A stretch of DNA of 64,000 bases from Natronobeatus ordinarius (lineage in GTDB: Archaea; Halobacteriota; Halobacteria; Halobacteriales; Natrialbaceae): the NCBI RefSeq assembly GCF_024362485.1, contig NZ_CP101456.1:930001-994000 (forward strand), read 5' to 3'. The notes under the pieces were generated by a model. It made no database searches. It worked only from the letters and a program-made list of their open reading frames with translations, and was not told the origin of the DNA. A program made the translations under genes and the position numbers. This document shows, in pieces, positions 31 through 3,504 of this stretch (within the stretch, counting starts at the first letter, position 1; every line of letters starts with the position of its first letter).

Positions 31-1764
31 TCAGCGAAGCGCCTCGAGGTCGAACTCGAACGCCGCGACGGGCAACTCGAGGTCGTGTTCGACGAGCACT
101 TTCGGGTGAACCTCGCCGATCACGCCGACCGCCTCGCCGTCGACGACGACGGCCGCGGTGCGACCCGGGATGAACGTCGGGTGCTCCGTCGGCGGCGTCT
201 CGAGGTCGACGTCGAAGTTGCGCGCGAGCGCCTGGAGGCGCGCTTTCGCGTCCTCGTAGGCGGCGTCGTGGCGCGCGAGGACGGCGCCGACCGACCGACG
301 TTCGCCCACGCCGGTGTTTTCGGACCCCTCGAGCTCGGCGGCGAAGCCGATCTCGGCCAAATCCTGCGGATAGGCGCGGTGGGTGTTTCGCTCGAGGACC
401 ATCAGCAGCGATGGCAGGACCCACGTCCGGAGCATGGTGTAGTCCTCGCTGTAGGGCTCTTTGATCGTCGCCGGCTCGCCGGCGCCGTAGACGTCGTCCT
501 CCGAACTGAGCCCGAGGCGGTCGTAGTTCTCCGCCTCGCTGATCATGTGGAAGTTCAGCATGTCCTCGAAGCCCAGGCCCACGAGGAGGTTTCGAGCGGC
601 GTTCTCGAGGCGGCTGCGCTCGTGGCGGCCGCCGACGGTGCCCACGTCGGGGTACTTCGGCTCGAGTTCGTTGAAGCCGTAGGCGCGCCCGAGGTCGTCG
701 ATCACGTCGACGGGATGGAGGACGTCGACGCGGTACGGCGGGATCGTCACCTCGTAGACGAGGCCCTCGTCGGTTTCCTCGCGCTCGGCCTCGAGGCCGG
801 AGCGCTCGGCGAGGTCGATCACCTCGTCGGGATCGAGGTCGATACCGAGGACCGTCTCGATGCGATCGTGACTGACGGTCTTCGTCTTGGTCGAGAGGTC
901 GGGTCGGACGAGTTCGGTGCCGACCGACTCGTACGCCGGGTCGTCGGGGTACTCGACGGTCACCTCCTCGATCCGAGCCCCGCGTGCGGCGAGGGCGTAG
1001 CAGACGATGGTGCACATCTTGTCGATCGTCCACTGGTCGGTGCCGGTCATCTCGACGAAGAGGTCCCGCGAGTCGGTGGTGACCTCCGTCCGGCGGCCGT
1101 TGATCACCGGCGGGAACGAGAACAACCCGATATCGTCGTAGATCGCCGGATACCGGTCGTACTCGCTCACGAGGTCGGCGTAGGTGCGCCCCGTCTGGTG
1201 CTCTTCGAGCACCTGTTCGGGCGTCATCTCCTCGTCGGCGTCGAGCGGAACGAATCGGTCGCCGTCGGGGGACACGCCGACGTAGCGGATGGTCGGGTTG
1301 CCATCCGTCGCCGGGCTTCCTTTCAGCATCGTCAGGTCGTGAATGCCGATTGCGCCCTTCGCGCGCTTTCGGCCCATCGTCGCGTGGAGCTTCTCCTGGA
1401 GCTGGATCAGCGACTCGAGGGCGTCCTCGTCTAAGTCGACGTTTCGGATCACGGCGCCCGTGACGTAGGGGCGCTCGTCGGGCACCGACTCCTCGACCTC
1501 GATGGCCCAGTCGGGCGAATTGGTCGACGGGACGGCGACCCCGCGAGCGTCGCCGTACTGGTAGCGAAGCGAGCGGGCGACGCCCTCGACCGAGAGCCGG
1601 TCGAGCCGGTCGGGGGCGAACTCGAGTTCGAACTCGCCCTCCTCCGTTTCGCCTTCGTACTCCAGGCCGAGCGCGAAGAGGTCCTCGATCAACTCGTCGT
1701 CTCCTTTCTCCTCGTGGCCGGTCAACTCGCGCAGTTCGTCGGGGTCGACGTCGACGGTTGGCAT
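31..1764 (-). CDS. pheT: Phenylalanine--tRNA ligase beta subunit
   Basis: PheT is the beta chain of the cytoplasmic alpha2beta2 PheRS that charges tRNA-Phe. The 577-residue protein has the archaeal-type beta-subunit architecture: an N-terminal region beginning MPTVDVDPDEL, the B3/B4 tRNA-synthetase core around residues 90-270 (RKRAKGAIGIHD, FPPVINGRRTEV), a B5 domain around 290-370 and a catalytic-like C-terminal module ending in AFEFDLEALR. It lacks the bacterial N-terminal tRNA-binding domain, as is normal for archaea. Its ATG overlaps the TGA of pheS by one base, so the two are translationally coupled in one operon. The stop codon lies only 30 bases from the window edge. Confidence 0.96.
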   Translation of the reverse strand: MPTVDVDPDELRELTGHEEKGDDELIEDLFALGLEYEGETEEGEFELEFAPDRLDRLSVEGVARSLRYQYGDARGVAVPSTNSPDWAIEVEESVPDERPYVTGAVIRNVDLDEDALESLIQLQEKLHATMGRKRAKGAIGIHDLTMLKGSPATDGNPTIRYVGVSPDGDRFVPLDADEEMTPEQVLEEHQTGRTYADLVSEYDRYPAIYDDIGLFSFPPVINGRRTEVTTDSRDLFVEMTGTDQWTIDKMCTIVCYALAARGARIEEVTVEYPDDPAYESVGTELVRPDLSTKTKTVSHDRIETVLGIDLDPDEVIDLAERSGLEAEREETDEGLVYEVTIPPYRVDVLHPVDVIDDLGRAYGFNELEPKYPDVGTVGGRHERSRLENAARNLLVGLGFEDMLNFHMISEAENYDRLGLSSEDDVYGAGEPATIKEPYSEDYTMLRTWVLPSLLMVLERNTHRAYPQDLAEIGFAAELEGSENTGVGERRSVGAVLARHDAAYEDAKARLQALARNFDVDLETPPTEHPTFIPGRTAAVVVDGEAVGVIGEVHPKVLVEHDLELPVAAFEFDLEALR

Positions 1765-3284
1765 CAGTAGGTCACCTCCGTTTCCCGCAGCAGTTCGAGG
1801 TCACAGAGCGTTCCGTGGATGTCGCGGATGTCCTCGAAGCCGTACATCAGCATGAGCAGTCGCTCGAGGGCGAGCCCCCAGGCCATCACGTCACAGTCGA
1901 CGCCCAGCGGTTCTAACATCTCCGGGCGGAAGATGCCGGAGTTGCCGATCTCGACGAGCTCGCCCGTCGTCGGGTGGGTACCGAACAGCTCGAAGGAGGG
2001 TTCGGTGTAGGGGTTGTAGTGGGGTTTGAACTCGATGTCGTGGATGCCGAACTGGGCGTAGAACTCCTCGAAGGTGCCCATCAGGTCCCGGACCGAGAGG
2101 TCCTCGGCCATCACCCAGCCCTCGATCTGGAAGAACTCGAGTAAGTGCGTCGGGTCGAGCGTGTCGTTTCGGTACACCTTCTCGACGCTGAAGTATCGCT
2201 GGGGCGGCTCCAATCGCCCGATCTCCTCGCCCGACAGGTAGCGCGCAGAGAGCGACGTGGTGTGCCCGCGAAGCGCGAGCGCGCGGGCGAAGTCCTCGTC
2301 CCAGGGGGAGTGATACCCCTCGCCGTCGGCGCCGACGCCCTGGCGATGGGCGCGCTCGACGCGCTCGACCAGGTCTGCGGGGAGCTCGTCGATGTGGGTC
2401 GGCTGCTCGAGGGCGAACCGGTCCCAGTGCGTTCGCGCCGGGTGGTCCTGGGGCATGAACAGGCAGTCGTTGATCCAGAAGTCCGCGTCGGCGTGGGGGC
2501 CTTCCATCTCCTGGAAGCCCATCCCGACTAAGACGTCCTTGACTCGTTCGGCCGTCTGGCGCAGGATGTGGACCTTGCCACCGTCGATGCGTTCTGCGTC
2601 GGCCCCCACGTTGTACTCGGCGAACTCGACGTCGCGCCACTGGCCGCTCGTGAGCAGGTCGGGCGTCACCGCGCCGACCGTCTCGGCCGTCTCGACGCCC
2701 GCCATCAGCGTCGTCACACCCTCATCGGTGAGCGTGACCTCGCGGATCGTCGTCTCGCGGCGCTCGACGAGGTCGCGGCGCTCGAGGTGCTCGAGGACCT
2801 CGTCGTCGAGGTCGCTCGGCTCCTCGCTCTCGCCCGCAGCCAGCGCCGAAAGTGCCGTCGCCTCGGGATCGGCGTCGCTTTCGGCGTCCGGCGCGGCGGT
2901 GATCTCGCCGCTCTCGATCGCGCCGTAGCCCTTCCGGGCGTAGTTCGACAGCGCGATGTTCACGCCAGCGCCCTCGAGGCCCGACGCGCCGATGACCTGT
3001 CCCATCTGAACGGAGTCATCGTCGGCGCCGGCCTGGCGGGCGGCCTCATAGAGGCGGACCTCCGGGAGGCCGTCCTCGACGTACTCGCTGCCCTCGTCGG
3101 TGAGGGTGATCGTCTGCTCGACGCGCTCGTCCACGGCGACCAGCCCCTCCGCCTCGAGTTCGAACGCCGCCCCGGTGACGGTCTCAGGCGGAAGGTCGGT
3201 CGCGGAAGCGAGGGCGTCGACGGACTGTGCCTCGTCTGCGCTCGCGGTCTCTAACACCGCGGCCTGTGCTTTCGGTAGTTGCAT
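1764..3284 (-). CDS. pheS: Phenylalanine--tRNA ligase alpha subunit
   Basis: PheS carries the class II catalytic site that activates Phe and charges tRNA-Phe with PheT. The 506-residue protein has winged-helix-like N-terminal repeats (about 1-210) and a C-terminal catalytic domain. Class II motif 2 is visible as KVYRNDTLDPTHLLEFFQIEG, split here as KVYRND and FFQIEG, and motif 3 as GLALERLLMLMYGFEDI. It is the first full-length gene of pheST. The 5' region of about 190 bases is unusually long for a haloarchaeal gene and carries a Phe-rich small ORF and a hairpin (see the entries at 3392-3472 and 3353-3371), which suggests control by Phe or tRNA-Phe charging. Confidence 0.96.
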   Translation of the reverse strand: MQLPKAQAAVLETASADEAQSVDALASATDLPPETVTGAAFELEAEGLVAVDERVEQTITLTDEGSEYVEDGLPEVRLYEAARQAGADDDSVQMGQVIGASGLEGAGVNIALSNYARKGYGAIESGEITAAPDAESDADPEATALSALAAGESEEPSDLDDEVLEHLERRDLVERRETTIREVTLTDEGVTTLMAGVETAETVGAVTPDLLTSGQWRDVEFAEYNVGADAERIDGGKVHILRQTAERVKDVLVGMGFQEMEGPHADADFWINDCLFMPQDHPARTHWDRFALEQPTHIDELPADLVERVERAHRQGVGADGEGYHSPWDEDFARALALRGHTTSLSARYLSGEEIGRLEPPQRYFSVEKVYRNDTLDPTHLLEFFQIEGWVMAEDLSVRDLMGTFEEFYAQFGIHDIEFKPHYNPYTEPSFELFGTHPTTGELVEIGNSGIFRPEMLEPLGVDCDVMAWGLALERLLMLMYGFEDIRDIHGTLCDLELLRETEVTY

Positions 3285-3352
3285 TCGCTTACCTCTATGG
3301 CTGTGGGTCGGTCAGTTAGCGGTTCCGACTCGGCGCGGACGGTTTCGCCCTC

Positions 3353-3371
3353 GGCGCCCGGTGTGGGCGCC
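3353..3371 (-). promoter_or_regulatory. Perfect GC hairpin in the pheS leader
   Basis: Seven-base-pair inverted repeat GGCGCCC / GGGCGCC with a five-base loop. It lies 20 bases after the stop codon of the Phe-rich small ORF and about 70 bases before the pheS ATG. No T-run follows it, so it does not look like a classical archaeal terminator. It could act in translation or in ribosome-dependent folding. The function is inferred. Confidence 0.5.
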
Positions 3372-3391
3372 TCGAGGTCCACCGGCCCGGC

Positions 3392-3472
3392 TCATCGGGC
3401 GAAGAAGAAGCCGAACCCCGGCCGTGCTGGGTGCTCGCCTGCGATCGACCGTCTGTGGGGTTCGGATGCCAT
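3392..3472 (-). CDS. Putative Phe-rich leader peptide of pheST (26 aa)
   Basis: An ATG-initiated ORF of 26 codons ends GFGFFFAR then TGA, with all four Phe codons (TTC) inside the last seven residues. A TATA-like box (minus strand GTTTTTTACG, 3494-3504) is centred about 27 bases before the ATG, the spacing expected for a leaderless haloarchaeal transcript starting at this ATG. The ORF ends about 107 bases before pheS and is followed by a perfect hairpin. This layout resembles bacterial aminoacyl-tRNA-synthetase leader peptides such as the E. coli pheST leader, whose Phe codons sense charged tRNA-Phe. No attenuator T-run is visible, so the mechanism is open. The ORF is too short for codon statistics. 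Confidence 0.6.
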   Translation of the reverse strand: MASEPHRRSIAGEHPARPGFGFFFAR

Positions 3473-3493
3473 GTGCGAACGGTTGTGAGGGGT

Positions 3494-3504
3494 CGTAAAA
3501 AACG
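3494..3504 (-). promoter_or_regulatory. TATA-like box of the pheST transcript
   Basis: Minus-strand CGTTTTTTACG is centred about 27 bases upstream of the leader-ORF ATG at 3472 and about 215 bases upstream of pheS. This is the only good TATA-like stretch in the intergenic region, which argues that the pheS message begins with the small ORF. Confidence 0.55.

Follow-up and report, generated by a model that had tools for sequence, protein, structure and literature searches.

A conserved phenylalanine-rich leader ORF upstream of haloarchaeal pheST as a probable attenuation-type sensor of Phe-tRNA

Ribosome-mediated attenuation is a textbook bacterial mechanism. The pheST (pheM), pheA, trp and his leaders of Escherichia coli all operate in this manner, each by means of a short open reading frame (ORF) with clustered codons for the cognate amino acid, while the T-box leaders of bacterial synthetase genes bind tRNA directly and thereby sense its charging. 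Here we analyse a 64,000-nucleotide window of the Natronobeatus ordinarius genome (contig NZ_CP101456.1, positions 930,001 to 994,000; coordinates below count from the first letter of this stretch unless otherwise indicated), in which pheST is preceded by a leader that resembles the E. coli systems in placing an ORF with cognate codons, surrounded by RNA structures, ahead of a synthetase or biosynthetic gene. The haloarchaeal leader differs from the E. coli attenuators in its host domain, its leaderless ORF, its archaeal promoter and its unrelated sequence, and additionally in a stem that joins its own start to the control codons, in the absence of a U-run terminator and in a promoter-like element located next to pheS. 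Like a T-box, it is a cis-acting RNA that precedes a synthetase gene and is predicted to sense tRNA charging, but the sensing would be carried out by a translated ORF with cognate codons. Rfam returned no family for the leader region at E values up to 10 except for a chance match at 9.5, and a T-box leader was ruled out by the lack of any match to a T-box RNA family.

In the searchable open literature (subscription journals lie mostly outside it, and absence is not proven) we found no report of leader-peptide control in Archaea. Start-site mapping in Haloferax volcanii (Babski et al. 2016, PMC4983044, Table 2) lists, within a pheS (HVO_2948) 5'-UTR of 150-250 nt, an ORF of 26 residues (pI 5.9, 2772 Da), as well as a 23-residue ORF ahead of the tryptophan--tRNA ligase gene HVO_A0127, both with mapped start sites. 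Both are presented there as small-protein candidates; that paper does not mention attenuation, and its passages on these ORFs do not discuss Phe or Trp codon content, conservation or RNA structure. In the genomes that we infer to be Haloferax the pheS leaders are 26 residues long, with a pI of 5.94 and a mass of 2792 Da. The two H. volcanii ORFs are very probably the same two elements, Phe and Trp, that we describe here, a judgement based on the published table.

All features of the pheS leader in the window lie on the minus strand. The leader ORF (3392-3472, with its ATG at 3472 and its stop at 3392) has 26 codons and encodes MASEPHRRSIAGEHPARPGFGFFFAR, with Phe at codons 20, 22, 23 and 24, exactly as the original prediction had described it, coordinates included; homologues precede pheS throughout the class Halobacteria, and the 26-residue ORF tabulated for H. 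volcanii is its probable counterpart. We refer to F22-F24 (TTC TTC TTC, 3401-3409) as the control codons. The stop codon is followed after 107 nt by the controlled gene, pheS (1764-3284), whose 506-residue product is the alpha subunit of phenylalanine--tRNA ligase by NCBIfam (NF003210, 609 bits; TIGR00468, 280 bits). The beta-subunit gene pheT (31-1764), identified by gene order and sequence, overlaps the pheS stop by one base. By pheS, the nearest relatives of the host are Natrialbaceae. Within 2.45 Mb of the same genome (about 58%), no other leaderless small ORF standing before a gene has four clustered Phe codons, and a strict filter applied to the same 2.45 Mb for leaders of other amino acids found none that was convincing besides pheS, overlooking the Trp leader described below, which has two Trp codons only.

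To what extent the leader is conserved was assessed across the class Halobacteria, from whose genomes we assembled 156 distinct regions upstream of pheS. By a strict test, 126 of them carry a homologous leader (118 distinct leaders), so that a cluster of cognate codons, with the consensus GFGFFF, stands before the controlled synthetase gene in 126/156 regions; lack of conservation of the Phe run among relatives, which the original prediction had named as refuting it, was not observed, and this check came out in its favour. The leaders span at least seven families, with members including Natrialba, Natrinema, Halorussus, Haladaptatus, Halorientalis, Halobacterium and Halogranum, and follow the consensus M[APT]-S/P-E-P/S ... 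G-F-G-F-F-F-A, the peptide ends being conserved around a variable middle (24 to 48 residues in the 118 leaders). About one fifth of the regions lack a leader by the strict test. Among these failures are diverged or frame-shifted leaders (L012, L026, L079, L103 and L136), and in some Haloferacaceae and Haloarculaceae no leader was found in the pheS upstream region. The locus L079 / L130, from a metagenome-derived genome, has a one-base frame shift ahead of the Phe run, either a sequencing error or a recent loss. In the Halomicrobium group (L097 / L160) the promoter box and the CGAAACCG side of the downstream RNA element (element C, below) are recognisable upstream of pheS and no intact leader ORF was found there, an arrangement that looks like a decaying leader. 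Another locus, L057 (PWGL01000012.1), is labelled Candidatus Pacearchaeota and has a Natrialbaceae-like pheS, 82% identical to that of the window, together with a leader; it is probably a mis-binned haloarchaeal contig.

A covariance model of the leader RNA gave a single match in its own genome (E 1.2e-21, the next at 0.2). Over 148 genomes of the phylum it matched 17 Halobacteria and one genome elsewhere, whose marginal score (E 0.005 over many genomes) we take as chance; all seven of the matched loci inspected lie before pheS. Weak matches (L191, L192 and L197) were considered as further in-genome members of the RNA family and rejected, as they are not leaders. The leader RNA is present in 15/15 genomes of a genus (g46). 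We take this genus as Haloferax on the grounds that one of its genomes (G210) encodes a trpS2 leader peptide (L358) with the same sequence as the one in Haloferax larsenii (L185).

Upstream of the ORF lies the putative leader promoter P1 (3496-3509), composed of a BRE-like CGTAACG (3509-3503) and a T-run or TATA-like box (3502-3497) that begins 30 nt before the ATG in the window. Among the 118 distinct leaders, the start of the TTTT-like box falls at -29/-30 relative to the leader ATG in 112 and at -31/-32 in the remaining 6, so that all 118 have a TATA-like box starting 29-32 nt upstream. As read from sequence, this spacing is that of a leaderless archaeal transcript. Since it is fixed, P1 would yield an RNA with its 5' end at or beside the leader ATG, and the ORF is probably leaderless, in agreement with the start originally proposed. 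Regarding whether leader and pheS share a transcript, the P1 spacing would place the transcript start at the leader ATG and, in another species, the H. volcanii pheS 5'-UTR is reported (PMC4983044) to hold the 26-residue ORF. A second, P2-like element with BRE/TATA-like character (TCGGAACCGCTAACTGAC, 3311-3328; GGAACCGCTAACTGAC, with variants GAANCGNTAAAC and GAACCGTTAACTGAC) adjoins pheS and is followed 24-25 nt downstream by a conserved A-A (3290-3289), a spacing that is retained although the A-A lies at variable distances from the pheS ATG. Its one perfect match in the genome is the copy at pheS, and the element is also kept in lineages without the leader; locus L202 has GGAACCGCTTTCC in its place. 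The P2-like element would fit a core promoter with a start near pheS and suggests that pheS may have a promoter of its own, which would bypass the leader. The H. volcanii start-site data mark no additional start at pheS (PMC4983044).

Two RNA structures accompany the ORF. The first, stem A, is a strongly covarying helix of 9 bp that pairs leader codons 3-6 (CCGAACCCC, 3457-3465) with the Gly19-Phe20-Gly21 codons (GGGGTTCGG, 3411-3419). The second, element C (3335-3389), lies 3' of the leader stop codon, with its GGA usually 7-13 nt past the stop, and follows the pattern CGGYGGAN-stem-CGAAACCG. It forms a long rod consisting of an outer stem, a strictly conserved purine internal loop (GGAN/CGAA) and an inner stem-loop with an unconserved apical loop, and is present in a single genomic copy by the covariance model. 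The perfect 7-bp hairpin initially noticed before pheS (GGCGCCC-ACACC-GGGCGCC, 3371-3353) is there, and corresponds to the distal tip of this larger conserved element. A K-turn reading of element C was set aside upon inspection, the purine loop being nearly symmetric. Both structures were recovered without guidance by RNAalifold from 50 diverse sequences. For stem A and element C together, pair counting gave 89.2% paired cells against 77.1% in shuffled alignments, 138 double-change cells against 52, and a covariation of 0.342 against 0.135 (at most 0.130 in slid versions); the structure used for these counts was partly fixed by inspection beforehand, and the RNAalifold run is independent of that choice. 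The minimum-energy fold of the window sequence additionally contains a possible hairpin around the leader stop (GCCCG-ATGAGC-CGGGC, 3385-3400), but a re-pairing test of the leader end with the post-stop sequence was not convincing across loci (6.58 vs 6.44 in Natrialbaceae, 6.56 vs 6.23 elsewhere), and no set of mutually exclusive structures emerged at the level of the class.

We consider it probable that the ORF is translated as the leader peptide of pheST mRNA and that it senses Phe-tRNA in the manner of an attenuator. On RNA made from P1, scarcity of Phe-tRNA(Phe) would slow the ribosome that follows RNA polymerase at the late Phe codons of the leader, and its position would select which RNA helices form. 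The ribosome footprint reaches about 15 nt to either side. A ribosome on the Phe codons would mask the 3' arm of stem A, and one on the stop codon would mask the 5' strand of the outer stem of element C, which starts a few nt downstream. As the ribosome on the Phe codons covers stem A, slow Phe decoding would thus shift the balance of helices, and the choice of helix would set the amount of pheST mRNA or protein. Four parts of this model are inferred: that ribosomes stall under Phe limitation, that the helical states exclude each other, which way the control runs, and the output step. For the latter, our first guess would be termination or polarity of the leader transcript brought about by aCPSF1/FttA; termination by this factor that is sensitive to translation, pheS translation and RNA decay are all possible outputs. 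The leader works, in kind, like ribosome-mediated attenuation, as first interpreted, with a putative mechanism: sensing of Phe-tRNA by the ribosome stands as the best-supported reading in the light of conservation, codon use, RNA covariation and the published H. volcanii start sites.

The output step is where the first alternative arises. Between the leader stop and pheS, a run of four or more T is found in 0/118 loci and the longest has at most three, consistent with the absence of a T-run terminator anticipated from the window. The intergenic termination signal of Haloferax is a T stretch (PMC7237163), so this signal is absent here; an intrinsic terminator in the pheS leader is rejected, and the leader is not an attenuator of the intrinsic-terminator type because the hairpin-plus-T-run feature was looked for and not found. 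The missing T-stretch terminator would suit a ribosome-sensing leader whose output is translational or acts on RNA stability, with the presentation of element C altering pheS translation or decay and not termination. The long rod of element C with its conserved purine loop also points in this direction, as does the Haloferax pheS gene, for which a 5'-UTR of 150-250 nt and no separate start site are recorded. Inspection, however, reveals no conserved pairing between element C and the pheS start, and the distance from the leader stop to pheS ranges from 97 to 231 nt; we regard this variant as rather unlikely.

Selection on the codons bears on the second alternative. The leaders contain 448 Phe codons in the reading frame, compared with 92 and 102 when the two remaining frames are read, and neighbouring Phe codons are found in the reading frame of 107 of the 118 homologous leaders but in the remaining frames of 5 and 3. 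At the three control positions TTC is used 231 times and TTT 85 times, and TTT, a rare codon, is five-fold enriched relative to the pheS coding sequences, where it accounts for 82 of 1435 Phe codons (5.7%; Fisher p = 9e-25, a value that overstates the independent evidence because the sequences are related). Phe is retained while the wobble base varies, and the Phe run is therefore held as Phe and not as nucleotides, whereas the Phe codon within stem A is TTC in 116/116. The codons are thus selected as codons, and the variable control codons and the invariant stem codon provide, at the level of sequence comparison, an internal contrast between peptide-level and RNA-level constraint. A structured RNA operator bound by a protein (e.g., PheRS in a feedback loop or another regulator), with the ORF merely incidental, would account for the strictly conserved internal loop and the covarying helices of element C. 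It is nonetheless improbable: RNA-level selection alone is insufficient to keep Phe at three codons with a free wobble base, the start codon stands at a fixed spacing from the promoter, and the apical loop is unconserved, so that no mimic of a tRNA anticodon loop is visible.

The pattern of changes in stem A weighs on a third reading, that of a micropeptide acting in trans as a protein and unrelated to pheST control. Where position 1 of codon 5 faces the wobble position of the paired Gly codon, the combination is C/G in 49 leaders, T/A in 52, T/G in 15 and C/A in none, and the state changes 13 times along the pheS tree; rarer compensatory pairs (CCT/AGG, GGATCC/GGGTCC and TCGAA/TTCGA) alter the peptide on both sides; in GGATCC/GGGTCC, Glu changes to Gly together with Phe to Ser. 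The conserved peptide ends could speak for a function of the protein itself, and a bacterial leader peptide, peTrpL, reportedly has such a role in trans. Here, though, the N-terminal and Gly-Phe-Gly residues track the RNA pairing, compensatory changes alter the amino acids, the length varies from 24 to 48 residues with a variable middle, and the ORF is located at pheS wherever checked, leaving this reading with very little credence. Finally, a chance ORF in a GC-rich intergenic region would be in keeping with the leader of the window, which when folded singly does no better than its shuffles (z = -0.95), but it is refuted by conservation, that is, by codon-level and pair-level selection in at least seven families, and the structural evidence is the covariation among relatives.

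The Phe leader is one of at least two, since a conserved Trp leader precedes trpS2. It was found through the table of PMC4983044 and the upstream regions of TrpRS genes, which were fetched with an approximate haloarchaeal TrpRS query used solely to retrieve real loci. In the same genome (contig 1, about 378587-378664, plus strand) the leaderless ORF MTSALGWPWYAPSRADSVAVGRDAA lies before a trpS2-type TrpRS gene at 378749 (+), with TTTTA near -30 and a stem, GTCCGCTCTC/GAGAGCGGAC, that encloses the Trp codons. Of the 30 haloarchaeal trpS2 loci fetched (L335-L364), 28 have a homologous leader in front of the gene, the stem covaries (GTCCACTTCC/GGAAGTGGAC, GTCCGCTCCC/GGGAGCGGAC), and past the leader there is a conserved pyrimidine-rich GCTCCCTYCGYTC tract with T-runs of 4-5 in 9/28 loci. 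Both leaders therefore have in common a leaderless ORF with clustered cognate codons, a TATA-like box near -30, a covarying stem that starts from the leader start region and a conserved element afterwards; the trpS2 leader differs in holding its Trp codons in the stem loop, in the GCTCCCTYCGYTC tract with its T-runs and in that GGAN/CGAA was not seen. The stem joining the start to Gly-Phe-Gly, the post-stop element, the promoter-like element at pheS and the Trp counterpart were all absent from the original prediction.

The Trp counterpart suggests a general strategy of amino-acid sensing. We tentatively propose, at somewhat less than even confidence, that Archaea have a ribosome-mediated attenuation of their own, in which class-wide leaderless Phe (pheST) and Trp (trpS2) leaders would sense tRNA charging and use a conserved RNA element to act on the fate of the transcript; the Phe system would do so with no intrinsic terminator, and perhaps by aCPSF1/FttA termination that depends on translation. 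A leader of this kind across a class would show archaeal translation coupled to gene control as it is in bacteria, in the setting of leaderless mRNAs and archaeal termination. Because probable homologues occur in H. volcanii, which is genetically tractable and for which start-site mapping and ribosome profiling have been published, the question is testable at once.

Two further observations concern genes of tryptophan metabolism. On Haladaptatus plasmids (L183 and L189), a different trpS gene has a short leader, ...TAGGRFWPTTAH, about 105-50 nt upstream, where the hairpins CCACCACTGCCGGTGG and GTGGTCGATTTTGGCCGACCAC overlap around the Trp codon and look mutually exclusive. On contig 1 of the N. 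ordinarius genome (401510-401611, minus strand), a small ORF with a Cys-rich start, MLGCCYGCGHERPTAAFEIHPRLKIVGFLPEPL, lies about 100 nt before a tryptophanase-family gene.
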